Assembly (NCBI RefSeq): GCF_003074135.1
Contig: NZ_PPDK01000001.1
Location: 992,001-1,056,000, forward strand
Direction of reading: 5' to 3'
DNA length: 64,000 nt
Source: Euzebya tangerina
Lineage (GTDB): Bacteria; Actinomycetota; Nitriliruptoria; Euzebyales; Euzebyaceae
A model generated the notes under the pieces. The model made no database searches, was not told where the DNA came from, and was given only the letters and a program-made list of their open reading frames with translations. Position 1 is the first letter of the stretch, and each line of letters starts with the position of its first letter. This document shows positions 8,353 to 46,613 of the stretch, piece after piece. The position numbers were made by a program, and so were the translations under genes.

Positions 8353-9480
8353 TCACCCCTGAGCCGGCTCCGGCGACGGATCGACTTCGGTGGCCGTGAT
8401 GGGCCCGGGCCAGTCCGGCACCACGGCGACGGAGTGGATGGTGCGATCCGCCACCCCCATCACGATCGCAAGGCCTGGCGTGCCTGCGCCGTCGGTGCCG
8501 ATGGACAGGACCAGGGCGTCCTCCCCGGCCAGCACGTCGGTGCTCCGCAGCTCCGGACCGTGGCCGGCGACGACGCTCGCCAGCAGCGATGCCGCCTCGC
8601 CTCGAGTCATCGTCCGGACCGGCGCCCGACCACCACCCGACCGGCCGTCCTTCACGGTCACCTGGGCGTCGAGCAGCGACTCGAGTGCGTCCCACCGACC
8701 ACGGCGCGCCGCCATGAGCACACGCGAAGCGGTCTGCTTGACACCCAACTCGAAGCTGTCCGACCGTCGCACGTGCATCGCGAAGAGCGGCTCGGACGTC
8801 CGCTGGGCTGCGCGCTCGATGCGCATGCCAAGCCCCTCGGAGAACGCCCGCGCCATGTCTGCCAGCGGGCTCTCGGTGCCGGTCATCCGCTCCATGGCGC
8901 CCGGCAGATCGTCACCGGTCCAGTGGATGAGGAGCATGTCGGGCAGATCGTCGCGAGCGTGCTGCAGCCACACCCACTCCTCGCGGACATCGGCCAGTTC
9001 CAGGAACTCGGCGTGGGACCGCATGAGGTCACCGGAGTCCAACCGGTCCAGCAGTTGGCGCACGGTCGACAGCTTCTCAGGAGGAACGGGCAGCGCGAAC
9101 ATGGTCTGCGTGTCGGCGATCGCCGTCGCCTGGGTGGTCGTCCCCGAGACGACCTCGGTCTGCGGGAACCGGAACGTCGGCAGGGACTGGCCGTGGTAGG
9201 TCCCGAGGACGGTGTAGAACAACCAGTCCTCATGCGCGCTACGAGCGGTCTTGGCTGGCGGCCGCGTGGCCACGTCCAGGTCGTCGCAGTCCCACATCAC
9301 CAGGGTCAGGTCGGGTAGATCACAGGACGTCTGCGCCCACATGCGCTCGCGGAGGATGCCGCGACCCAACATGAATCGCCGGTGATCGGTGTTGTCGGTC
9401 TCGGGCAACCGGCGCGCTGCCTCCTTCCACGACGGCCCCTGTCCGGGGGCATGGGGCAGGGCGTAGGCGACGCGAGGCAC
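8353..9480 (-). CDS. Uncharacterised protein with duplicated N-terminal module and SnoaL/NTF2-like C-terminus
   Basis: A 375-residue cytosolic protein starting from GTG 9480; the frame is open further upstream, but that part only mirrors the neighbouring monooxygenase gene. Two similar segments occur at residues 48-71 and 171-194, sharing W-x-Q, DLPD, a hydrophobic strand, W and DDL, which suggests an internally duplicated alpha/beta module. Residues about 253-365 resemble a SnoaL/NTF2-like fold of the kind fused to some ECF sigma factors, ending in GLAIVMGVADRTIHSVAVVPDW. No sigma-factor or catalytic domain is seen. Function is unknown; a small-ligand sensor or scaffold is possible (inference). 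Confidence 0.6.
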   Translation of the reverse strand: MPRVAYALPHAPGQGPSWKEAARRLPETDNTDHRRFMLGRGILRERMWAQTSCDLPDLTLVMWDCDDLDVATRPPAKTARSAHEDWLFYTVLGTYHGQSLPTFRFPQTEVVSGTTTQATAIADTQTMFALPVPPEKLSTVRQLLDRLDSGDLMRSHAEFLELADVREEWVWLQHARDDLPDMLLIHWTGDDLPGAMERMTGTESPLADMARAFSEGLGMRIERAAQRTSEPLFAMHVRRSDSFELGVKQTASRVLMAARRGRWDALESLLDAQVTVKDGRSGGGRAPVRTMTRGEAASLLASVVAGHGPELRSTDVLAGEDALVLSIGTDGAGTPGLAIVMGVADRTIHSVAVVPDWPGPITATEVDPSPEPAQG

Positions 9481-9554
9481 TGCTCGAACAGTACGGCACC
9501 GCCCCGACCGTGTCCGGGCCTGGACGGGTACCGCTGGCCGTGATTCCCGCAGCG

Positions 9555-11468
9555 CTACCCGGATGCGGAGAGGTGGTAGTCCTCGAGGTCCACCGTCCGG
9601 GTCATGTGCCAGTAGTCGACCAGCCGCCACGGCGTGTTGACGATCACCCTGCCCTTGGAGTTCTTGTACCAGTTCCGCATCCCGTCGTGGGCCCACACCA
9701 TGTTCGACAGGATCTCGTCGATCCGGGTGTTGTAGCGCTCGTAGGCCTCCCGGGTGACCTCCAGCTGTCCGCCGGTCTCGGCCAACTCGGCGATGCACTG
9801 CACGGCGTAGTGCACCTGCGCCTCGGTCTGGAAGATCGTCGAGCCGCCGTGCCCCAGACCCGTGTTCGGCCCGAAGATCACGAACAGGTTGGGGAAGTTC
9901 GGGACGGTGATGCCGAGATAGGCCCGGGGGTCCTCCTCGCCCCACAGTTCGGCGAGGGTCACGCCATAACGGCCGACGACCTCGATCGGGAAGATCGGCC
10001 GGGTCACGTGGAAGCCCGTCCCGTACACCACGACGTCGACCGGGTGATGCGCGCCGGAGGTGTCCACCACGCCATCGGCCGTGAAGGACTCAACCGCCTC
10101 GGGGACCAGCGTGACGTCGTCGGCGGTGATCAGGTCCAACCACCCGTTGTCCATCAGCATCCGCTTGCCGTACGGGGGGTAGGTCGGCACGCAGTGCTCC
10201 AGCAGCTCCGGATGCCCCTCCAGCTTGGACTCGATGTAGGCGGTCAGGAACTTGCGGTGCCGCTCGTTGGCAGCGTTCATGGACCGCTCGGGGTGCTCCC
10301 ACTCGGGGTCAGCGTGCAACGACGGGTACAGCCCGTCGCCGAACCGCCAGAACAGCATGAACCGGTACCAGGTCGCGTAGAACGGCACGACGTCCAGCAG
10401 GTACTGCTTCTCCGGGGACACCTGTCGGTGGTAGTCGGCGTTCGGCGCCAGCCACTGCGGGGAGCGTTGGAAGATGGTGAGGTGCGCGGCTGAGCGGGCG
10501 ATCGCGCGGCCCGACTGCACGCCGCTCGCGCCGGTCCCGACCAGCCCGACGTGTTTGCCGGTCAGGTCGACGTCGTGGCGCCACTCGGCGGTGTGGAAGG
10601 CAGGCCCCTCGAAGTCCTCCGAGCCGTCGATGTCGGGCACCTTCGGCTTGTTCAGCTGGCCGACGGCGAAGAGGACGACGTCGGCCTCCAGCACCTCGTC
10701 CGTACCGGACGTGTTGGTTGTCGTGACCGACCAGGTCCCATCGTCCCAGACGGCCCGGGTGACGGTTGAGTTGAACCGGATGTGGTCGTAGACGCCGGTG
10801 TCGCGGGCCGTGTCGATCAGGTACTCGAGGATCTCCTCCTGCTTGGAGAAGTACGACGACCACCGGTGCCGCTGGTTGAAGGAGAAGGAGTAGAAGTGGT
10901 TGGGCGTGTCGACCCCGCAGTCCGGATAGGTGTTGTTGAACCACGTCCCGCCCACCTCGGGGTTCTTCTCGAGGATCACGTAGGAGATGCCGGCGCGAGA
11001 CAGCTGGACCCCGGTGCAGATCCCCGACAGGCCGGCACCGATCACGATGGCGGTCGGCCGCTCGTCCTCCTCGACCCTGCGGATCGCGTCCGTGGCTGAG
11101 GTGTCGGGGTCGCGGAACCCCATCTCCTCCATGAAGAGGGGGACGTACTCCTCGCTGACCTCCTCGGCGACGGCCACCGACATCATCCGCGCCAGCGTCG
11201 CGGTCGGTAGGTCCACCGGTTCCGCCCCGGACAGCACGGCCTCGAAGACCGCGTCGCGCAGGTCCTGTTGAGCCTGCTCGGTCAGGCCACCGGACTCGTC
11301 GGGGAACAGTCGGACGTCGCGGGCCGGCTGGTACGGCTCCTCGATCCACCGGCGGTCGCCGGTCAGGTGGACCATCACCATCGCGAGGACCGGCATGTCG
11401 GCCTCCGAGAGCGCCTGACGGAGCTGGTCGGCGTCCAGTGGCGCGAGGGGCTCGGCCGGGTCGATCAT
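9555..11468 (-). CDS. Flavin-containing monooxygenase, Baeyer-Villiger type
   Basis: Cytosolic FAD- and NADPH-dependent oxygenase of 637 residues from ATG 11468 (MIDPAEPL), whose start overlaps the TetR stop in an ATGA. The FAD Rossmann loop is GAGLSG at 144-149 and the NADPH loop GTGASG at 311-316. Between them FEGPAFHTAEW (286-296) matches the FxGxxxHxxxW fingerprint of Baeyer-Villiger monooxygenases, which insert oxygen next to a ketone to form esters or lactones. About 135 residues precede the flavin fold, a helical extension seen in some actinobacterial members. As last gene of an operon with a nitroreductase-like enzyme and an acyl-CoA ligase, it probably belongs to catabolism of a cyclic ketone, steroid-like or aromatic compound (inference). 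Confidence 0.93.
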   Translation of the reverse strand: MIDPAEPLAPLDADQLRQALSEADMPVLAMVMVHLTGDRRWIEEPYQPARDVRLFPDESGGLTEQAQQDLRDAVFEAVLSGAEPVDLPTATLARMMSVAVAEEVSEEYVPLFMEEMGFRDPDTSATDAIRRVEEDERPTAIVIGAGLSGICTGVQLSRAGISYVILEKNPEVGGTWFNNTYPDCGVDTPNHFYSFSFNQRHRWSSYFSKQEEILEYLIDTARDTGVYDHIRFNSTVTRAVWDDGTWSVTTTNTSGTDEVLEADVVLFAVGQLNKPKVPDIDGSEDFEGPAFHTAEWRHDVDLTGKHVGLVGTGASGVQSGRAIARSAAHLTIFQRSPQWLAPNADYHRQVSPEKQYLLDVVPFYATWYRFMLFWRFGDGLYPSLHADPEWEHPERSMNAANERHRKFLTAYIESKLEGHPELLEHCVPTYPPYGKRMLMDNGWLDLITADDVTLVPEAVESFTADGVVDTSGAHHPVDVVVYGTGFHVTRPIFPIEVVGRYGVTLAELWGEEDPRAYLGITVPNFPNLFVIFGPNTGLGHGGSTIFQTEAQVHYAVQCIAELAETGGQLEVTREAYERYNTRIDEILSNMVWAHDGMRNWYKNSKGRVIVNTPWRLVDYWHMTRTVDLEDYHLSASG

Positions 11469-34718: not shown

Positions 34719-34860
34719 GGATGTCTGATCGGTCGGTCGGGCCTCGAACTTGAGGAAAGCCTCCGCCGTCGGGAAACAGCTCGAGGGACCGTCACCAGCG
34801 CGGCCTCGGCCTCGTGGGACTTCCGCGGTCATGTCGCACTCACTTCGTATCGTCGTGGGC

Positions 34861-36570
34861 ATGACGGACCACCAGCCAGTTGCCGGGCGGGTCATCGGGA
34901 CAGAGGCGGCGCGACCGCTCGAGTTCCACGTCCACGTCGCGGCCGACCAGTTCCTCCAACTCGACGACATCGTGGCGGTCAGTCGACCGGTCCCGGGACG
35001 CGGGGAGATCGAGCTGTACGGGGTGGTCACGGAGGTCCGCGGGTTCCACGAGGGGCTCGAGCACCACTCCGATGTGGAGCGGGTGATGGCGGGGCAGATG
35101 TACGGGCGGGCCTCCGAGGTTGCGACGGTCCTCACGACCCGGATCGAGCCAGAGGTCTTCCTGCCGCCGATTCCGGGCAATCCCGTCCACAAGGTGGCGG
35201 GCGCACAGCGCGATCGTGCGATGTTCCTGGACAAGATCGAGCCCTCCCGGCGACTGGCGGCGGGGCTGCACCGGGCCGGTGGGCCCGTGTTCGTCGACGC
35301 CGACTTCCTCGATGGCACCAGCGGAGCCCACGTCAACATCTCCGGCGTCTCCGGGGTGGCGACCAAGACGTCCTACGCCACGTTCCTGCTGCACTCGCTG
35401 TTCCACCGCGGCTCGACCGTTCTCGGCCGGTCGAAGAAGCACGCGCGTGCGCTGATCTTCAACGTGAAGGGTCAGGATCTGCTCTACCTGGACCAGGCCA
35501 ACAACAAGCTCACGGTCGAGCAGCGGGCCAAGTGGGCGGAGCTCGGTCTGCCGGCCGAGCCATTCGACTCCGTCGCCATGTGGTCGCCGCCGGTGAAGGG
35601 GGCGGTCTCTCCGACACCGGCCAGCGCGCGGAAGGACAAGGTTCGCGGCTACTGGTGGTCGCTGGCCGACTTCTGCGCCGAGGAGATGCTCGGCCTGCTC
35701 TTCGCCGACACCGACGACGAGCGACAGCAGTACACGGCCGTGGCCCGCAACGTCGCCGTTGCTCTGGCCCGGTTCGCCACCCCACTGCAGCAGGGCGGGG
35801 TCCAGATCGGCGCCCAGCAGGCCACGACCTTCGACGATCTGGTTCGCATCATCCGGGACTACGCCGAGGACGAGGACCCGCAGTGGGTGGGCCGGTTCGC
35901 AACCTCCGGCTCCATCGGCGCCTTCATGCGCCGGCTGGACTCGGCCGCCGACCACGTCGGCCATCTCATCCGCGGCGATCAGGACGGCTGGCAGCGGCAC
36001 CGGGTCAAGGTCATGGACTCCGACGAGCAGGTCAACGTCGTGGACCTCACGCCCCTCAGCGGCCGGGCCCAGCGCTTCGTCGTGGGCGCGCTGCTGCAGC
36101 AGGAGTTCACGGCCAAGGAGGCCCGGGGGACCCGCGACCCGCTGCTGTTCGTGGTCCTCGACGAGCTGAACAAGTACGCGCCGCGCCAGGGCAACTCGCC
36201 GATCAAGTCCACGCTGACCGAGATCGCCGAACGTGGCCGGTCGCTCGGCATCATCCTGATCGGCGCCCAGCAGACCGCGTCGGCGGTGGCAGAAGCGGTG
36301 GTGACCAACGCCGCAGTCAAGGTCGTGGGGCGACTCGACCCGGCTGAGGCGGCCCGCAACGAGTACCGCTGGATGCCCGAGAGCCAGCGCGACCGGGCCA
36401 TGCTGATCAATCCGGGGACCATGATCCTGAAGCAGCCTCGCGTCCCCGCCCCGCTGGTGGTCAACTTCCCCATGCCGGCCTGGGCCACGCGGGCCGAGGA
36501 GGTCGCGATGGACGTGACCTTGGGGGACGACGACGTCTTCGCCAGCGACCCCTTCTTGCGCGGTGGCTGA
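34861..36570 (+). CDS. herA: HerA-type DNA-translocating ATPase
   Basis: A 569-residue hexameric-helicase-like ATPase of the HerA/FtsK group. The N-terminal 100 residues fit a HAS-barrel (RVIGTEAARPLEFHVHVAADQFLQLDDIV). The P-loop GVSGVATKTS (162-171) is the variant Walker A of this group. Walker B is LLFVVLDELNKYAP (428-441), followed by AERGRSLGIILIGAQQTASAV, a HerA hallmark. HerA works with the NurA nuclease to resect DNA ends; a nurA-like gene lies four genes downstream with sbcD and sbcC between. ATG 34861 starts the conserved part; the upstream 37 codons of the open frame are probably not translated. Some bacterial HerA proteins act in phage defence, which cannot be excluded. Confidence 0.88.
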   Translation: MTDHQPVAGRVIGTEAARPLEFHVHVAADQFLQLDDIVAVSRPVPGRGEIELYGVVTEVRGFHEGLEHHSDVERVMAGQMYGRASEVATVLTTRIEPEVFLPPIPGNPVHKVAGAQRDRAMFLDKIEPSRRLAAGLHRAGGPVFVDADFLDGTSGAHVNISGVSGVATKTSYATFLLHSLFHRGSTVLGRSKKHARALIFNVKGQDLLYLDQANNKLTVEQRAKWAELGLPAEPFDSVAMWSPPVKGAVSPTPASARKDKVRGYWWSLADFCAEEMLGLLFADTDDERQQYTAVARNVAVALARFATPLQQGGVQIGAQQATTFDDLVRIIRDYAEDEDPQWVGRFATSGSIGAFMRRLDSAADHVGHLIRGDQDGWQRHRVKVMDSDEQVNVVDLTPLSGRAQRFVVGALLQQEFTAKEARGTRDPLLFVVLDELNKYAPRQGNSPIKSTLTEIAERGRSLGIILIGAQQTASAVAEAVVTNAAVKVVGRLDPAEAARNEYRWMPESQRDRAMLINPGTMILKQPRVPAPLVVNFPMPAWATRAEEVAMDVTLGDDDVFASDPFLRGG

Positions 36571-36610: not shown

Positions 36611-36823
36611 ATGGCATACCAACATCACATCGGCGACACCGTGGAGTGGCAGTGGGGCGACGGCACCGCCTCCGGTGAGATCACCGAGCGCTTCACCGAG
36701 AAGGTCACTCGGACCATCGATGGCAACGAGGTGACGCGGGATGCGTCGGAGGACGAGCCCGCGTACCTGATCGAGCAGGATGACGGCCAGCGGGTGCTCA
36801 AGTCGGCGTCCGAGCTGAGCTGA
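36611..36823 (+). CDS. Small DUF2945/Tudor-like protein
   Basis: A 70-residue acidic protein of the hypervirulence-associated Tudor-domain family (DUF2945). Its strands read IGDTVEWQWGDGTASGEITERF, KVTRTIDGNEVTRDASEDEPAYLIEQDDG and QRVLKSASEL, a complete small beta-barrel. Family members are widespread and mostly uncharacterised; Tudor-like folds bind nucleic acid or modified peptides. It lies 40 bp after herA and 82 bp before sbcD on the same strand, so it may be cotranscribed with the repair genes. A link to DNA-end processing is inferred from location only. Confidence 0.87.
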   Translation: MAYQHHIGDTVEWQWGDGTASGEITERFTEKVTRTIDGNEVTRDASEDEPAYLIEQDDGQRVLKSASELS

Positions 36824-36905
36824 CCGCGTCGGGCTGACCCTTCGGCTGACGCCGGCCGGGGACGGCTCCGCGGGCCTGTCGCACCCCCTCGCTACGGTGA
36901 GGGAG

Positions 36906-38132
36906 ATGAAGGTTCTGCACACCGCCGACTGGCACGTCGGGCGCACGATACGGGGTCGGTCCCGGGCGGAGGAGCACCGTGCGGCCCTCGCTCAGATCGC
37001 CGAGGTGGCCCGGGATCGGGCCGTCGACGTCGCCGTCGTCGCGGGTGACCAGTTCGACGTGCAGGCCCCATCACCCGAGGCGGAGCAGATCGTGTGGTCA
37101 GCCCTGCAGGCGCTGGCAGAGGTGGCTCCGGTCGTGGTGGTTGCCGGGAACCACGACAACCCGCGGCGGCTGGACGCGGTCCGCAACCTCCTGACGGCCA
37201 ACCAGGTCCACGCCGTCGGCCAGGTCCAGCGGCCCCAGGACGGGGGAGTCGTCCGCATCGAGACGGGATCAGAGTCCGTGGCCGTCGCGATGCTGCCGTT
37301 CCTCCACCACCGCAGCGCCGTGCGGGCCGCCGACCTGCTCGACCCGCAGCGGGGCGACGCCGAGTACGGGGCGTCCTACAACGACCTGTTCGCCCGCTAC
37401 TCCCACGGGCTGTGCCGGGATCTCGGCGACGACGAGTTGTCGATCCTGGTGAGCCACGTGACCTGCTTCGGCGGCGCTCGTGGCGGCGGCGAACGCGAGG
37501 CCCACTCGATCGAGCGGTACTGCGTCGACCCTCGCGCCTTCCCAGGGCAGCTCGACTATGTGGCCCTGGGGCATCTCCACCTGGCGCAGCAGGTGGGCTC
37601 GGCCCCACCGGTCCACTACTCCGGGGCCCCCTTGATGATGGACTTCGGCGAGAGCGACAAACCCTGCTCGGTCAACCTGGTCGAGTTGCGGGCTGGGAGG
37701 CCGGCGTCGGTCGAGGTCGTGCCCGTGACGACTGGTCGGCCCCTGCGGACGCTGCGCGGGACGTTGGACGAGGTCATGGAACTGCCGGCACCTGACGACG
37801 AGCCGTGGCTGCGGGTGCTGCTGTCCGGTGCCGTTCCGGCCGGCGTGGCGGAGACCGTCCGCGGGCACCTCGGCGAGGGCGTGGTCGACGTCCGCCTCGA
37901 GAGCCGGGAAGAGGCGCAGGCCGTCACCGGTGGCGAGCGTCTCGGCACCCCCCCGCAGGAGCTGTTCGGGCGGTTCCTCGCCGAGCAGCAGGTCGCGGAC
38001 GAGCGGGTGCCGGCCCTCTTCGCGGAGTTGATCGACGAGGAGTTCCAGCAGTCTGGCGAGGATCCGACCGGCTCGGAGACCGACGGCTCGGCTGGAGCGA
38101 CCGGGGGAGGAGAGGTCCGTGCGTCCGCTTGA
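36906..38132 (+). CDS. sbcD: SbcD/Mre11-type DNA exonuclease subunit
   Basis: Manganese-dependent nuclease subunit of 408 residues, a normal SbcD length. Phosphoesterase motifs are in order: HTADWHVGR (5-13), VVAGDQFDVQ, VVVAGNHDNPRRLD, SHVTCFGG and LGHLHLAQQ; all metal ligands look intact. With SbcC it opens hairpins, trims protein-blocked ends and resects double-strand breaks. ATG 36906 lies behind GGTGAGGGAG. The last 14 bp overlap the sbcC start, showing coupled synthesis of the complex. Placement after herA and before nurA is unusual for bacteria, where sbcCD is normally linked to neither. Confidence 0.96.
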   Translation: MKVLHTADWHVGRTIRGRSRAEEHRAALAQIAEVARDRAVDVAVVAGDQFDVQAPSPEAEQIVWSALQALAEVAPVVVVAGNHDNPRRLDAVRNLLTANQVHAVGQVQRPQDGGVVRIETGSESVAVAMLPFLHHRSAVRAADLLDPQRGDAEYGASYNDLFARYSHGLCRDLGDDELSILVSHVTCFGGARGGGEREAHSIERYCVDPRAFPGQLDYVALGHLHLAQQVGSAPPVHYSGAPLMMDFGESDKPCSVNLVELRAGRPASVEVVPVTTGRPLRTLRGTLDEVMELPAPDDEPWLRVLLSGAVPAGVAETVRGHLGEGVVDVRLESREEAQAVTGGERLGTPPQELFGRFLAEQQVADERVPALFAELIDEEFQQSGEDPTGSETDGSAGATGGGEVRASA

Positions 38133-40530
38133 GCTGACCATGAGCGGCCTGACGTCGTTCACCGATCGTGTGACGGTGGACTTCGATGGCGCCTCGCTGT
38201 TCGCGCTCGTCGGGCCCACGGGTGCGGGGAAGTCCTCGGTCGTGGATGCGATGACCCTGGCCCTGTATGGCCGCATCCCGCGTCTGCACGCCAACGAGGT
38301 CGCGCCGGTGATCTCGACCGCGGCGTCGGAGTGCACGGTGGCGCTGACCTTCACCGTCCGGGCGCAGCGCTATCAGGCGGTCCGCACCATTCGGCGGACC
38401 AAGACCGGGGCGAGCACCGTCGAAGCCGTCCTGGACCAGTTGACCGATGACGGGCAGGTCGCAACCACCCTCGCCGGGACCGCCGACGACGTCACGACCA
38501 CCGTCGAGTCGGTGATCGGGCTGTCCTTCGACGAGTTCACGCGAGCCGTGGTGCTGCCCCAGGGGGCCTTCGCCCGCGTCCTCAAGGCCAAGGCGTCAGA
38601 ACGCCAGAGCCTGCTGGCCCGGCTGCTGGGCACCGGGATCTACGACCGTGTCAAGCAGCGCGCCGGGGTTCACGCCAAGGCCGCACAGACCCGTGCGGAG
38701 CAGACCGCCCATCAGATCGCCCAACTCGGCGGCGTGGATGCCGCGCAGATCGAGCCGCTCAAGAACCGGGTGTCCGAGTTGGACCGGCTGGTCGCCTCGC
38801 TGGCCGAGGACACGACCACGCTGCTCGACATCCGCGAGCGGTTCCGCACGGCCAAGGACGCGGCCAGCGAAGCCCGTGAGCAGGTGAAACGACTGTCGGC
38901 GATCGGCCAGCCGCCCGAGGAGGTCGCTCAGGTCGCCGCACACATCGCCCAGGCCGATGCGGCGCTGGCGCAGGCTCGGACCACACTCGAAGCCGCCGAG
39001 CAGCAGGTGGCCGACGCCGAGGATGCTGCCGGCGACCCCGAGACCATCGACCGGCTGACCCGTCTGCAGGCCGCCCACCAACGAACCGGGGAGCTGACCG
39101 CCGCGCTGGCACAGGCTGATGCGGCGCTCCCGCCGATCCGTGCGCTGGCCGAGACGCTCGAGGGGGACCAGAGCTCCTCCGCCGACGCGGTCCAGCGTGC
39201 GCAGAAGGCGCAGACACAGGTCCATCGCGAGCATGCGGCCGTCCAGGCCGTCGACGGGCTGGGGCCGGGACAGGACTGTCCGGTGTGCGCGACACCGCTT
39301 AGCCCGCAGGCCCCGGCGCTGCTGCTCGACCAGGCCGCGGGCCAGGAAGCGGTGTCCTCCGCGGCCCAGGCCGTGACCGCCGCGGTGGCTGCTCACACCG
39401 CTCTCACCACCCGGCTGGACCGGGCCAAGGCCGACCTCCGGACGGCCGCGGTCGAGCGGGACCGGGCCAAGGTGGCGCTGGCTGATCATGTCGCGGCGCT
39501 GGAGGGCGAGCCCTCCCCGCGTGAGGTCGCGGAGCAACTGGCCGCGGCCCGACAGGTGCAGAGCAAGCTCGGCGAGCTGCGCACGGTCGCTCGACAGGCA
39601 CGGCAGCACCTCAAGGACACCGAGGCGTCCCGGGAGAAGCTGCTCGCCCAGTCCAGTGGGCTCTCCGCCAAGCTGGACCGGCTTCGGCTTGCCGTGGGTG
39701 AGCTGGAGCCACCGGCGACAACCGGCGCGGTAGCCCGCGACTGGGAGCAACTGCACGAGTGGAGCCAGACGCAGCTACCGTCCGCCACCCTCCGCGCGGC
39801 CGAGGCTGACGAGGCGGTCGAGGCGGTCGAGGTCGAGGGTCGTCAGCTGCGTGAGGCGATGGAACAGGCGTGCGCCGATGCCGAGGTGCCGGCTGGCGAG
39901 GGGGACCCACGTGATCGTGCGGTCCAGGCTCGTGCCGACGCGGCAGCTGAGGCCGCCCGGCTGGAGCAGGTCGCGGCAATGGTGGCGAACCTCAAGCTCG
40001 ATGAAGCGGATGCGCGTGAGCAGGCCCAGGTCGGCGCGGAACTGGCGCGCCTGCTGCGGGCCGACCAGTTCCAGAAGTGGCTGCTGGACGGGGCGACGAG
40101 ATCCTTGGTCACGGGTGCCTCCGCGCAGTTGCGGCAGCTCTCCAGCGGCCGCTACGAGCTGAATCTGGATCGTCGCGGTGCCATCGAGGTCGTCGACCTG
40201 GCCAGCGCGGGGATGACCCGCAGCGTGCGGACGCTCTCGGGCGGCGAGACCTTCCTGGCGTCGCTGGCACTCGCGCTCAGCCTGGCCGAGCAGATCGCCC
40301 TGTCTGCGGCTGGGCCGGTTGCGCTCGAGTCGCTCTTCATCGATGAGGGATTCGGGGCACTGGACCCGGAGACCCTCGACATCGCCGCCGGGGCCATCGA
40401 GCAGCTCGGCGCGGGGGACCGGACCGTGGGCGTGATCACCCACGTGGCCGAGATGGCCGACCGGCTGCCCACGCGCTTCGTCGTCGGCCGATCGGCTGGC
40501 GGGAGCCACGTGACCAGGATGGACGTGTAG
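38119..40530 (+). CDS. sbcC: SbcC/Rad50-type ATPase subunit
   Basis: SMC-like ATPase of 803 residues, shorter than the Escherichia coli protein because its coiled coil is shorter. Walker A is GPTGAGKSS near residue 32. Two long Ala/Glu/Gln-rich coiled coils flank the zinc hook CPVC (in GQDCPVCATPL) near residue 391. The signature motif is LSGGETFLASLALALSLAEQ, and Walker B LFIDEGFGALDPETLD lies near the C-terminus. GTG 38119 follows GGGGGAGGAGAGG. It clamps DNA and controls the SbcD nuclease. The stop is 2 bp before the next start. Confidence 0.96.
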   Translation: MRPLELTMSGLTSFTDRVTVDFDGASLFALVGPTGAGKSSVVDAMTLALYGRIPRLHANEVAPVISTAASECTVALTFTVRAQRYQAVRTIRRTKTGASTVEAVLDQLTDDGQVATTLAGTADDVTTTVESVIGLSFDEFTRAVVLPQGAFARVLKAKASERQSLLARLLGTGIYDRVKQRAGVHAKAAQTRAEQTAHQIAQLGGVDAAQIEPLKNRVSELDRLVASLAEDTTTLLDIRERFRTAKDAASEAREQVKRLSAIGQPPEEVAQVAAHIAQADAALAQARTTLEAAEQQVADAEDAAGDPETIDRLTRLQAAHQRTGELTAALAQADAALPPIRALAETLEGDQSSSADAVQRAQKAQTQVHREHAAVQAVDGLGPGQDCPVCATPLSPQAPALLLDQAAGQEAVSSAAQAVTAAVAAHTALTTRLDRAKADLRTAAVERDRAKVALADHVAALEGEPSPREVAEQLAAARQVQSKLGELRTVARQARQHLKDTEASREKLLAQSSGLSAKLDRLRLAVGELEPPATTGAVARDWEQLHEWSQTQLPSATLRAAEADEAVEAVEVEGRQLREAMEQACADAEVPAGEGDPRDRAVQARADAAAEAARLEQVAAMVANLKLDEADAREQAQVGAELARLLRADQFQKWLLDGATRSLVTGASAQLRQLSSGRYELNLDRRGAIEVVDLASAGMTRSVRTLSGGETFLASLALALSLAEQIALSAAGPVALESLFIDEGFGALDPETLDIAAGAIEQLGAGDRTVGVITHVAEMADRLPTRFVVGRSAGGSHVTRMDV

Positions 40531-40532
40531 GC

Positions 40533-41543
40533 GTGGACTTCAGACTCGACAGTTGGCAGTCGGACTACGCCTTCCCCTACGAGGTCGGCGAGCAGGCCGA
40601 TGAGGGCCCGGACCTCGATCAGGTCGACGTCACCGTCGAGGCGCCAGCCCACGACTGGGCAGCCATTCGACCGTCAGCGGACACGGCGCCGTTCGACGTG
40701 GTCCGGTTCGTCGATGGTGTGCAGGCCTCTGATGCGGTCATCTGGATCCATGACGACGGCCGGGCCGAGCCGTTTCCCGGACTTGTGGCGTCCTGGGGTG
40801 CGGGTGTCATCACCTCCTATCGCGATCACGTCGAGCTCGAGCGGGTGGTCATCGAACGAGGGGTGTTCTCCGACGCCCGAAGTCTGGGGCCGATCATGGC
40901 GGGGAACCTGACCTGGCGGCCCCGCCCACCCGACACCACAGGTGGGGAAGGGTTGTCCGAGCCTGCTGGGGACCCGGGCGCGCTGCGGGAGCGGCTCGGC
41001 GCGGCCCGGCGACGCCTGGAGGACGCGGTCGGGCAGGTGACGCCGGGATCCGAGGACGGCCTCACGGTGTACGACGGCCTGTTGCATGCCTCGTCGGCCC
41101 CCCTGACCGCAGTCGGACTGGCCAAGCGAGCACACCGGATCTACTTGCCCGTGGCGCTGCGCCCCCTCCAGCGGCACCTGGCCCGGGGCGAACGCACGCC
41201 GCTGTTCAGCACCGACCCCCAGCGTCGGAAGCTGTCGTTCTACTTGGCGCTGTCGGATCCGCTCCCACCTGCCGTCGCGGAACCTGGCTCGTGTGTTGCC
41301 CGGATGGAGTTGCGCATCGGTCCCGATACGACGGTCGGCGATGCCGCGGCCTTCGCCGACCGCGTGGCGGCAACCATTCCCCGCTACGCTTCAGAGCCTC
41401 ATGTCGACCCGCGGGCGCCCCAGAACCTGATGCCGATCCGCAGCCTGGAGAACGAACTGCGTCGACGGCTGGGACGCCCAGCCGTGCTCCGCCCGCTCTT
41501 GGCGGGCCAGGCGGCCGCCGGTCGAGCGGCTGCCCGAGTCTGA
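40533..41543 (+). CDS. nurA: NurA-like DNA-end nuclease
   Basis: A 336-residue protein with the pattern of the NurA 5'-3' nuclease and endonuclease family. Motif I FVDGVQ has D61 where NurA has its first metal ligand, YDGLL has D181 as second Asp, GLAKRAHR has K199, and RYASEPHVDPRAPQNLMPI has H290 close to the C-terminus. The last segment SLENELRRRLG matches actinobacterial NurA-domain proteins. NurA acts as a dimer docked on a HerA hexamer, and herA lies upstream in the same cluster. GTG 40533 starts 2 bp after the sbcC stop and the helicase gene follows without a gap, so it is an operon member. Sequence similarity is limited to motifs, so the call is strong but not proven. Confidence 0.8.
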   Translation: MDFRLDSWQSDYAFPYEVGEQADEGPDLDQVDVTVEAPAHDWAAIRPSADTAPFDVVRFVDGVQASDAVIWIHDDGRAEPFPGLVASWGAGVITSYRDHVELERVVIERGVFSDARSLGPIMAGNLTWRPRPPDTTGGEGLSEPAGDPGALRERLGAARRRLEDAVGQVTPGSEDGLTVYDGLLHASSAPLTAVGLAKRAHRIYLPVALRPLQRHLARGERTPLFSTDPQRRKLSFYLALSDPLPPAVAEPGSCVARMELRIGPDTTVGDAAAFADRVAATIPRYASEPHVDPRAPQNLMPIRSLENELRRRLGRPAVLRPLLAGQAAAGRAAARV

Positions 41544-44285
41544 GTGGGGGCTCGGGAGTCCACGGCCAACTCTTCCGCTGTGCGTGTTGCGGGTGGGGAC
41601 GTCGGCTCCGGATCGGCTGAGGCCCCCAGGCCGTTCGGTCGCGGCGCGATCGTCCAGGAGGGCCAGCAGGCGCCCACGCACCTGGCGACGGCCCAGCGCG
41701 TCCGTCTCGACGGCTCGGCGCTGGCCCGGCCGCAGGCCGTGATCGACCGGCTGCACCGGGCGTGGGCCAGCAGGACGCCGGTGGTGGTCGAGTTGGTTGT
41801 CGACCCGGCTGAGCTGACCGTGCAGGAGCGGTCGACCGAGCCCGTGCACAGCCATCGCCCGACGATGCTCTTCCCCCGCGAGCGGCTGCGGCATCTGGTG
41901 TGGGCCAACAGCCTCGACTGTCGTGGCGGCGCCCCGATCTGGTGGCATGCGGTGAAGGCCGCCCGGGCCAGCGGCGGCCGGGTGGTGGCGGGCGGCCCGG
42001 CTGATGCGCTGGTGGTGGCCGCGGACGGCGAGGAGGTCCCGGTGTGGATCGACGGCGGTCCACGCCGGTCATGGGACGTGGAGCACCCGGTTCTGCACCG
42101 CGAGGACACGCAACGGGGCACCGTGATCCTCCCCACCGGTGCGGGGAGGGTTGGCGTCGGAGCGGCCCCGACCGGGTTGGCGCCGGATCAGGCCGCCGCT
42201 GTCCAGGCCCCCGGCGGGTCCGTGCGCGTGGCGGCACCCGCGGGCTCCGGCAAGACGCGCGTGCTGACGGCCAGACTCCAGGAACTCCTCGGACACCGCC
42301 AGGCCCCACCGGGCACCGTCCTGGCGCTGGCCTACAACACCAAGGCAGCCGCTGAGATGCGGGCCCGGAGTCGGGCCGGACGCGGCAGCCGCCGCGCCCA
42401 GGTGGCCACAGTTCACTCACACGCGCTGGCGATACTGCGGCGCCATCGGCCAGGGATCACCGTCCTCGACGAGCGCGATGTCAGAGCCCTGCTCGGGCAG
42501 CTGATCGAGCCACCTCGGCGCGCCAACGTCGACCCCCTCCAGCCCTACATCGATGCGCTGGAGACCGTCCGGACAGCGCTGAAGGACCCGGCGGAGGTCC
42601 AGGAGGACCGCGACGACGTCGAGGACCTCGACCGCATCTTCGGGGCCTATCGGGCCGTCCTGGCCGACCGCAACGCCGTCGACTTCCCGGAGATGGTCTA
42701 CGCCGCCATCGAACGCCTGCTGGTCGATCCTGCGGCCCGAGCCGCCGAGCAGTCCCACGCCGAGCAGGTCCTGGTGGACGAGTTCCAGGACCTCACCCCC
42801 GCCTACCTGCTCCTCATCAGACTGCTGGCCAGCCCGCAGCTGCAGTGCTTCGGGGTTGGCGACGACGACCAGGTCATCTACGGCCACGCGGGCGCCACGC
42901 CGCAGTACCTGCTGGACTTCGATCAGCTCTTCCCCGGCTCTGAGGACCACCCCCTCACCGTCAACTATCGCTGCCCCGCCCCGGTGGTCCGCGGTGCCGT
43001 GGCCTTGCTGGACAACAACGCCGTGCGGCTGGACAAGCAGATCAATCCAGGCCCCGACGCCGGCCAGAACGAGATCGCAGTGCACCGGGTCCACACCACC
43101 GAGCAGGCCAGGACAGCAGGATCGGTCATCGCGGATGCGCTGGATGCCGGCAGAGGTGCAGACGACCTCGCCGTGCTGGCCCGCATCAAGGTTGCGCTGC
43201 TCGGCACGCAAGCCGACCTCGCCGGTCGCGGGATCCCCACCCGCAGTCCCATCGGGGAGTGGCTGTTGCAACGTACGACGGTCCGGGCGGCCCTGGCCTA
43301 CCTCCGACTGGCGACAGACGACCACCTCGGTGGAGAGGACCTGGCAGAGATCCTCCACCGGCCCCTTCGTGCCATCCCCGGTGCCATGCGCGACACGCTT
43401 CGCCGCCGCGACTGGACTCCCCAGGGCTTCGGCGACTTCTGTCACAGCACCCCAGGCCGATCTGGACGGGCGCTCCAACGCATGGAACGGGATCTCACAG
43501 CCCTCCGCGGCCGAGCCCAGCGGCAACCGACGACGGAGGTGCTGCGGTACGTCGCAGACGTCATTGGCCTTGGAGATGTCGCTGCATCGCTGGACGCCTC
43601 CGCGGGAGATCAGATCGCCGCCAGCCACATCGACGACCTCGATGCCCTGCTGCAGGTCGCCGACCACTGCCCCGAGCCGACTGCGTTCGAGCGATTTCTC
43701 ACCGACGTCGTCCGGCAGCCCGATCCCGGTGGTCCAGCCGTGACCCTGTCCACCATCCACAGCGTGAAGGGGCTGGAGTGGCCACACGTCGTCGTGGTGG
43801 GGGCGGGCGAAGGGGTCAACCCGCATCGCCTGGCCACGACGCCACCGCAGATCGAGGAAGAACGACGTGTCTTCCACGTCGCCATGACCCGTGCGGGTGA
43901 CCAACTGACCGTCATCGCGCCACAGACCGGAACGTCCCGCTTCGTGGACGAGATGCTCGGCAAGACCCCACTGGTGGGGGCCTCGGCTGCGGCTCGCCCA
44001 GCCGTGGGACGCGCGACGACGACCCAGCCCAGGGCCACCCGGCCCAAGGTGACCCGGGAGGGGACCGGCAGCCGGCGCACCGCAACCGCCACACCCGCGC
44101 GCCCACAGTTCCGGGCAGCACCAGGACTGGCCCTCAAGGCCTCCGGCGGTCTGGAAGGGGTCGTCGAGTCCGTCACCGACGACGGGGCACTGGTCCGCAC
44201 ACCGCGTGGTTCCCTGCTGCGAGTCACCTTCGGCAGCGAGGTCCGCGTCGACGGTGACTTCGGCACCCTGACGCGCCCCACCTAG
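41544..44285 (+). CDS. UvrD/Rep-family helicase with added N-terminal domain
   Basis: Superfamily 1A DNA helicase of 913 residues. The Q-motif region GLAPDQAAAVQAPGGSVRVA precedes Walker A APAGSGKT (231-238). Walker B is VLVDEFQDL near 412, then VGDDDQVIYGHAGATPQYLLDF, the LTVNYRCP motif, TLSTIHSVKGLEWPHVVVVG near 735 and FHVAMTRA near 778. About 210 residues precede the helicase core and match no usual UvrD region. The C-terminus ends with a basic linker and a Tudor-like barrel, GVVESVTDDGALVRTPRGSLLRV, as in UvrD/PcrA. It begins with GTG directly after the TGA of nurA. A helicase at the end of a herA-sbcDC-nurA locus suggests a dedicated end-processing machine (inference). Confidence 0.93.
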   Translation: MGARESTANSSAVRVAGGDVGSGSAEAPRPFGRGAIVQEGQQAPTHLATAQRVRLDGSALARPQAVIDRLHRAWASRTPVVVELVVDPAELTVQERSTEPVHSHRPTMLFPRERLRHLVWANSLDCRGGAPIWWHAVKAARASGGRVVAGGPADALVVAADGEEVPVWIDGGPRRSWDVEHPVLHREDTQRGTVILPTGAGRVGVGAAPTGLAPDQAAAVQAPGGSVRVAAPAGSGKTRVLTARLQELLGHRQAPPGTVLALAYNTKAAAEMRARSRAGRGSRRAQVATVHSHALAILRRHRPGITVLDERDVRALLGQLIEPPRRANVDPLQPYIDALETVRTALKDPAEVQEDRDDVEDLDRIFGAYRAVLADRNAVDFPEMVYAAIERLLVDPAARAAEQSHAEQVLVDEFQDLTPAYLLLIRLLASPQLQCFGVGDDDQVIYGHAGATPQYLLDFDQLFPGSEDHPLTVNYRCPAPVVRGAVALLDNNAVRLDKQINPGPDAGQNEIAVHRVHTTEQARTAGSVIADALDAGRGADDLAVLARIKVALLGTQADLAGRGIPTRSPIGEWLLQRTTVRAALAYLRLATDDHLGGEDLAEILHRPLRAIPGAMRDTLRRRDWTPQGFGDFCHSTPGRSGRALQRMERDLTALRGRAQRQPTTEVLRYVADVIGLGDVAASLDASAGDQIAASHIDDLDALLQVADHCPEPTAFERFLTDVVRQPDPGGPAVTLSTIHSVKGLEWPHVVVVGAGEGVNPHRLATTPPQIEEERRVFHVAMTRAGDQLTVIAPQTGTSRFVDEMLGKTPLVGASAAARPAVGRATTTQPRATRPKVTREGTGSRRTATATPARPQFRAAPGLALKASGGLEGVVESVTDDGALVRTPRGSLLRVTFGSEVRVDGDFGTLTRPT

Positions 44286-45002: not shown

Positions 45003-46613
45003 CTAGAGTCTGGCCAACCACTTCTCCCCGACGGCCAGCCGACGTTCGAGGTCCGCCACGGTGGCGTCGGAGATCCGGGAGATGCCGGACTGCTTGTTCA
45101 GTTCGGCGTTCACCGATCGGTGGTTCAGGCCCGCCCTGCGGGCCAGCACCCGGGCGAGGTCGGCGTTGCGCTGTCGCATCTGGGTCTTGGTGAGGTGCCG
45201 CGGAGCAGGGCCAGACGCTCCCTCGTCGATGGCGTGCACCACACCTCCTGGCGTCGGTGGCGGGAGCAACTCCAGCGGGACCCCGACCTGGTCGGATTGG
45301 GGAAAGGCCGAGGTGTCGAACCACTCCGGTTCCTCGGTGTCAGTGGTCGCCGTCGACGCAACAGCCTGGAAGAGCGAGATCTGCTCACCGTCGGCAACGA
45401 GGCCGGCCAGCGGATCCTCGACCTCCTCCGCCTCAGCACCGTCATCCTCTCGGCGGCGCAGCAGGTGACGACGGGCTTCGGCGATGCCCAGCGCGTGCGC
45501 ACGGAGCCGGGGATCATCCGGCAGGAACATCATCGACCGCTGCCCGCGCGTCTCGGGCGTGACCCGCACCAAGCGACCGACGGCTTGCCGGAAGAACAGT
45601 TCGGTGGAGGTGTTGGTCGCGAACACCCCAACCCGCAGCCGGGGGATGTCCACACCCTCGCTCACCATTCTCACGGCGACGATCCACGGGGCCGAGGAGC
45701 CGGCGAAGGCCCCGATCTTGGCGGAGGCATCCGGGTCTTCGGAGGTCGTGACGACGGCCTCCACCCCGCACCGCTCGCGGAGGATCCGGGCCACACCGCG
45801 GGCATGCTCGGTGTCCATGGTGATGGCAAGCCCACCGGCATCGGCTTGGTGCTGTCGCAGTCGCATGAGGCTCTGGTTGGCCCGGGTCAGCACGGCGGGC
45901 AGCCACTCACCGTCCAGCGAGAGGGCGGTTCGGAGCCGCTGGGCCGACAGCGTCCGGTCCAACTCGTCGGCGAACGAGGCGGCGTGATGGGAGCCGTCGG
46001 GCGACACCCACTCCATGTCCCCCTCCACGCGAGGGAAGTAGACAGGTCGGACCACGCCGTCGGCCAGGGCATCGGCGTAGCCGTACTCGACATCCGGCAT
46101 GGCCTCGTCGAGGTCGTAGCGCACGAAGGGGATGGCCTGCGTATCGGACCGGAACGGCGTACCCGACAGCCCGATGCGGCGACGGGTGTCGGCGAAGGCC
46201 GTGGCGACCCCGTCCCCCCAGGCTCGGTCATCGCCCGCGTGATGGATCTCGTCGAGGACGACCACGCCGCCAGCGGAGCGCGCGCGCAGCTCGCCGGCCG
46301 CGCTGGCCACCTGCTGATAGGTGGTGACGATGCCGTGCATGTCGGCCCCGAACGGTTCGCCGGTCTGCCAGGCCGGATTGAGGTGCAGGCCAAGCCGGGC
46401 CGCGGCGTCCGCCCACTGCACCTTCAGATGTGCGGTGGGCGCCACCACCACCGCAGGTGCGGGCCGCTGCAGCAATTCGCGGCTGATTGCGGCGAGGGCG
46501 AACGTGGTCTTCCCGGCGCCAGGCGTGGCCACGGCCAGGAAGTCGGGGTGGGGATGTGCCTGCAGGGTGGTGAGCGCACGTTGTTGCCAGGGGCGGAGCA
46601 TGAGAGCAGGCAC
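45003..46613 (-). CDS. Superfamily 2 DEAD/DEAH-type helicase
   Basis: ATP-dependent helicase or translocase of 536 residues. The entry motif LRPWQQRAL precedes Walker A ATPGAGKTT (about 29-37), AVVVAPTAHLKVQW (Ia), VVVLDEIHHAG (Walker B), IGLSGTPFRSD (III), VRMVSEGVDIPRLRVGV (V) and RQAVGRLVRVTPETRG (VI). The arrangement resembles RadD/XPB-like SF2 enzymes and helicase parts of restriction systems, but no nuclease domain is seen. The C-terminal 130 residues, with HLTKTQMRQRNADLARVLARRAGLNHRSVNAELN, look like a helical DNA-binding part. A DNA-repair role is plausible. It is convergent with pspC and divergent from the GGDEF gene. Confidence 0.92.
   Translation of the reverse strand: MPALMLRPWQQRALTTLQAHPHPDFLAVATPGAGKTTFALAAISRELLQRPAPAVVVAPTAHLKVQWADAAARLGLHLNPAWQTGEPFGADMHGIVTTYQQVASAAGELRARSAGGVVVLDEIHHAGDDRAWGDGVATAFADTRRRIGLSGTPFRSDTQAIPFVRYDLDEAMPDVEYGYADALADGVVRPVYFPRVEGDMEWVSPDGSHHAASFADELDRTLSAQRLRTALSLDGEWLPAVLTRANQSLMRLRQHQADAGGLAITMDTEHARGVARILRERCGVEAVVTTSEDPDASAKIGAFAGSSAPWIVAVRMVSEGVDIPRLRVGVFATNTSTELFFRQAVGRLVRVTPETRGQRSMMFLPDDPRLRAHALGIAEARRHLLRRREDDGAEAEEVEDPLAGLVADGEQISLFQAVASTATTDTEEPEWFDTSAFPQSDQVGVPLELLPPPTPGGVVHAIDEGASGPAPRHLTKTQMRQRNADLARVLARRAGLNHRSVNAELNKQSGISRISDATVADLERRLAVGEKWLARL

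Follow-up and report, generated by a model that had tools for sequence, protein, structure and literature searches.

The locus studied here raises the question of whether an open reading frame of Euzebya tangerina, at 40533-41543 of the window (the whole stretch of DNA analysed, 64,000 nucleotides), encodes a NurA nuclease, and what such an enzyme would do beside HerA and SbcCD. The ORF belongs to a series of genes on one strand, in the order herA-(TUDOR ORF)-sbcD-sbcC-nurA-uvrD-like:

34750-36570, + strand: herA, HerA/FtsK-type translocase ATPase (phmmer to 7f6d_B, E 4.5e-122 and 3.5e-122)
36611-36823, + strand: small ORF of 70 aa with a Hva1_TUDOR domain, between herA and sbcD (Pfam PF11160, E 2.7e-22)
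36897-38132, + strand: sbcD, Mre11 homologue (TIGR00619, E 2.4e-49, above the cut-off)
38119-40530, + strand: sbcC, Rad50 homologue (TIGR00618, E 3.2e-81, below the curated cut-off; Pfam AAA_23 and SbcC_Walker_B)
40533-41543, + strand: nurA, 336-aa bacterial-type NurA nuclease, GTG start, with D61, E163, D181, K198, H290 and R294
41544-44285, + strand: UvrD-like SF1 helicase of 913 aa (PF00580, E 1.2e-45), starting directly at the nurA stop

The true start of herA is probably downstream of the listed TTG. Its product carries the Walker A stretch SGVATKTS, identical to that of DrHerA, and the Walker B motif FVVLDE. A gap of 326 nt, which holds the small TUDOR ORF, separates herA from sbcD. SbcC (803 aa) has a CPVC hook motif in its sequence. 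The sbcC gene overlaps the end of sbcD, the GTG start of nurA lies 2 nt past the sbcC stop codon, and the next GTG ORF begins right at the nurA stop. These overlaps and gaps of 0-2 nt suggest that sbcD, sbcC, nurA and uvrD may be expressed in a coupled manner. The four genes of an operon of the mre11-rad50-herA-nurA type are thus contiguous on one strand, and the HerA linked to NurA has Walker A and B intact. All four genus members (L001-L004) have a UvrD-like gene next to nurA on its downstream side, an arrangement seen in 0/80 other loci. The N-terminal 200 aa of this helicase (41544-42149) have no Pfam domain match; homologues of the region occur in 31/61 relatives, mostly unlinked to nurA and, in other genera, located elsewhere.

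Searches of the NurA ORF against Pfam, NCBIfam and PADLOC returned no family name, and the Pfam NurA model (PF09376) found neither this protein nor any other in its genome. The miss reflects the limited reach of the model, and is a matter of detection, not a defining property, because a paralogue from another member of the genus exceeds the cut-off (E 2.3e-6). A single-sequence search of PDB sequences found D. radiodurans NurA (DrNurA) at E 4.3e-8. With a profile built from 20 homologues, hmmsearch detected DrNurA at E 4.5e-46, which rules out chance resemblance, and T. maritima TM1739 at E 4.9e-17; all significant profile matches were NurA proteins. A loose form of the combined NurA motif set appeared in 0/20,000 shuffles of the same protein. 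In light of the profile matches and of the fold described below, a weak match to DUF6456 (E 0.0066, below the cut-off) was dismissed as spurious.

The AlphaFold2 model of the protein (mean pLDDT 85.3) has the RNase H-like NurA fold with C-terminal helices. Foldseek ranked 7f6d and 1zup first, and VIA-align gave Z values of 24.2 to 1zup, 22.7 to 7f6d, and 14.7 and 12.0 to the archaeal NurA of Sulfolobus (2ygk) and Pyrococcus (3tai). The fold aligns best to solved NurA structures; an unrelated fold, which the original prediction had given as a refutation, was not obtained. That the protein is another RNase H-like nuclease merely resembling NurA, such as a relative of Endonuclease V, whose structures do appear lower in the fold list (Z ~9), has a negligible probability, as NurA structures lead widely, the profile matches are to NurA only and a HerA gene is linked.

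Within the genus, dN/dS of nurA is 0.06-0.32, a rough range since dS nears 1 in some pairs, and by this measure the gene is under purifying selection. The ORF is a real gene encoding a genuine bacterial-type NurA, and both this identity and the partnership with HerA can be regarded as almost certain. Membership of the family and the role of nuclease partner of HerA had been proposed in the original prediction, and both are supported by the profile, the predicted fold, the aligned catalytic residues and the operon context. Its description of the protein as having little overall similarity holds for pairwise comparison (~20% identity to DrNurA) and for the PF09376 miss, but not for profile searches. 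The Euzebya NurA is a further member of a known family, ordinary as a protein.

FVDG (D61), YDGLL (D181) and EPH (H290) are all at the positions first assigned to them; the lysine had been misplaced by one residue, as residue 199 is R and the conserved lysine is K198. By alignment, D61, K198 and R294 correspond to D53, K201 and R309 of DrNurA, and E163 and D181 to its E155 and D184, in a numbering whose 20-residue tag offset was inferred from the chain numbering and reproduces the published positions. Each of the substitutions D53A, K201A and R309A abolishes DrNurA nuclease activity (PMC9960219). TM1739 (PDB 1zup), the best structural match to the Euzebya protein at 18-20% identity, has D61, E152, D169, K189 and R280 (chain numbering) in place of D61, E163, D181, K198 and R294, but no residue aligned with H290. 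Across 102 homologues D61, E163, D181, K198 and R294 are invariant and H290 is kept in 101, although the conservation of H290, D292 and R294-L299 is partly by construction in loci L026-L105, which were picked with the pattern H[KRV]DxRAP[QV]NL. Among 22 relatives not chosen by this pattern, R294 is invariant and H290 is lost once. E163 and R294, absent from the residues first listed, are conserved more strongly than H290. The monomer model predicts an N-terminal strand at residues 3-7, with W8 present and residues 10-24 of low confidence. W8 is kept in 97/97 homologues reaching that position; in DrNurA it matters for resection (PMC9960219).

The YDGLL motif had been taken as a replacement of the usual DGPL. 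It is present, but is restricted to the genus (DGLL in 4/4 genus members and 0/98 other homologues) and marks no general divergence of the family. Proline occupies the DGPL-type position in 96/102 homologues, and DGRL and DGAL are also found outside the genus, with the Asp intact. From the alignment, DGLL is a genus-level change that leaves D181 intact. Further genus-specific changes lie near the site, with GLAKRAH in place of GYVKTHH and an insertion around residues 133-147. Such substitutions could be expected of a NurA relative whose catalysis was lost or altered in the genus, and which would cap HerA in a structural role. We regard this as very improbable, since all six residues (D61, E163, D181, K198, H290 and R294) are kept, the gene shows signs of purifying selection within the genus, and other homologues vary at the same motif without losing the Asp.

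Recurrence of the operon was counted over 80 loci from genome contigs, with the loci having enough flank as denominators. SbcC is encoded directly upstream of nurA in 62/66 loci, SbcD is present in 58/59 and HerA in 45/57, being not found in the flank of the other 12. The herA-sbcD gaps are mostly <210 nt. By record title, the carriers are mainly Acidimicrobiia and other Actinomycetota, and some loci come from MAGs labelled Gemmatimonadota, Acidobacteria and Gammaproteobacteria. Cultivable relatives with the block include Labedaea rhizosphaerae (L095) and Nocardioides sp. URHA0020 (L099). The herA-sbcD-sbcC-nurA arrangement, best known from archaea, is common in a group of bacteria that are under-annotated. 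The finding is moderately interesting at the level of the operon and ordinary at that of the protein. No description of a bacterial four-gene operon was found in the literature searched, which is an incomplete set, and we do not claim newness.

The HerA-NurA of D. radiodurans (PDB 7f6d; PMC9960219) resembles the Euzebya pair in combining a bacterial-type NurA with HerA, in the aligned D53, K201 and R309, and in the predicted N-terminal strand with a tryptophan at position 8. The two HerA proteins are strongly similar (E 3.5e-122), while the two NurA proteins share the low identity given above. In the literature searched, bacterial HerA-NurA is assigned to Deinococcus-Thermus, where two genes form the unit and knockouts have confusing phenotypes. 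There the unit is a herA-nurA operon, and D. radiodurans lacks Mre11-Rad50 (PMC12977600); the phylum also lacks RecBCD/AddAB (PMC9960219). In contrast, Euzebya has sbcD-sbcC between herA and nurA, plus RecBCD. The archaeal mre11-rad50-herA-nurA cluster (Sulfolobus, Thermococcales; PMC2288612, PMC12977600) likewise holds the four functions in one operon, and its NurA has the same RNase H-like core. However, the Euzebya HerA resembles the Deinococcus protein, with archaeal HerA (4d2i) barely detected by sequence (E 0.79), and the best-scoring families for SbcD and SbcC are bacterial. One chain of TdpAB (PDB 8wet, 8wfd) also matches the NurA model (Z 12.5), but far more weakly than bacterial NurA does, and no specific similarity was found.

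A genome without RecBCD/AddAB, as in Deinococcus-Thermus (PMC9960219), was the expectation, which was rejected. A complete recC-recB-recD cluster lies on the same contig (L122:4297-13380, G000:C1), ~8 kb beyond the window end. The HerA-NurA module therefore adds to RecBCD instead of replacing it, and is not the sole resection enzyme of the genome. A simple substitution for AdnAB-like enzymes is not favoured either by a survey of PF12705 over 61 relatives, because several NurA-bearing genomes show, by inspection, paired long PF12705 frames.

If the system works as in D. radiodurans (PMC9960219), HerA would pass duplex to a NurA dimer, and 5' ends would be resected as the DNA is translocated. 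In the mechanism proposed, two NurA subunits would cap the HerA hexamer, which would move dsDNA into the NurA dimer, driven by ATP hydrolysis. The duplex would be split near the NurA N-terminal strand and pin. Two-metal RNase H-like sites (D61, E163, D181) would then cut the strands, K198 and R294 contacting phosphates, and the outcome would be resection of 5' ends. Hairpin or blocked ends may be opened or trimmed by SbcCD from the same operon, which would let HerA-NurA load, possibly with help from the UvrD-like helicase in this genus. We infer nuclease activity, complex formation, polarity, the hand-off from SbcCD, and repair rather than DNA destruction. Taken as a whole, it is likely that a catalytically competent bacterial-type NurA works with HerA and SbcCD in end resection. 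Against this count the presence of RecBCD, the different surroundings of the active site in the genus (DGLL, GLAKRAH) and the 12/57 loci with HerA missing from the flank. Deletions in Deinococcus and Thermus, which gave mild or even resistance phenotypes (PMC9960219), also count against it, as does the HerA-NurA of T. kodakarensis, which degrades both strands, and whose authors doubt that HerA-NurA acts in end resection at all and suggest an antiviral role (PMC12977600).

The last of these reports is in line with another reading, that HerA-NurA-SbcCD is mainly a DNA-destroying defence against phages and plasmids, in which HerA feeds foreign DNA and NurA degrades both strands. Such a role would also fit the availability of RecBCD for repair and the patchy distribution of the family, which is carried by 74/396 sampled genomes of the phylum. 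One copy sits on a plasmid of Streptomyces sp. BB1-1-1 (L137:2439-10008, + strand), in herA-sbcD-sbcC-nurA order with a restriction endonuclease gene nearby. In a congener, a paralogous NurA-HerA pair adjoins a GmrSD_N/Schlafen-AlbA gene, and GajA/GajB, type IV REase or SoFic-like neighbours occur at a few operons. However, no homologue was found in viral contigs or among 50,697 phage records, and the plasmid records with the family number only 4, the Streptomyces plasmid among them. Among 133 flanking proteins, strong matches to defence models are mostly single members (raw counts), and no Pfam family occurs in more than 3 of the 133, so that the flanks share no gene family. Genes for PspC and GGDEF proteins lie near the window operon, with no recognised defence island; yet an SF2 helicase similar to PbeA and Dnd-type restriction helicases (45003-46613, - strand) adjoins it. 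The linkage to SbcCD itself points to end processing and, because it is strong, end processing with SbcCD is favoured and mainly defensive use appears unlikely.

In a wider sense, the locus may represent a Mre11-Rad50-HerA-NurA style module that combines bacterial-type proteins with the archaeal gene set. Among Actinomycetota, and in some bacteria of other groups, it could commonly serve as an alternative resection system that works beside RecBCD and, in this genus, includes a UvrD-like helicase as well; we put this generalisation forward tentatively, at somewhat less than an even chance. Mesophilic actinobacteria that have herA, nurA and the SbcCD genes in one operon, with RecBCD as well in at least one genome, would allow a repair role to be told apart from a defence role. 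Annotation is affected too: Pfam NurA misses the family, and at least one plasmid record in the public databases, that of Streptomyces sp. BB1-1-1, lists its nurA as a 'hypothetical protein'.

Some relatives carry these genes in other arrangements. The paralogous pair of the congener (G003), in nurA-herA order (L124:5914-8705 and 8846-11158, both - strand), has the GmrSD_N and Schlafen-AlbA_2 gene directly upstream, and its NurA is the paralogue that matches Pfam NurA. A similar nurA-herA pair is found in G017 (L127:2334-5155, - strand). G016, a genome of the same taxonomic order as that of Euzebya, has a nurA-herA-sbcD-sbcC series (L126:9551-16267, + strand), in which the NurA scores below the Pfam cut-off and sbcD and sbcC are named from N-terminal sequence only.
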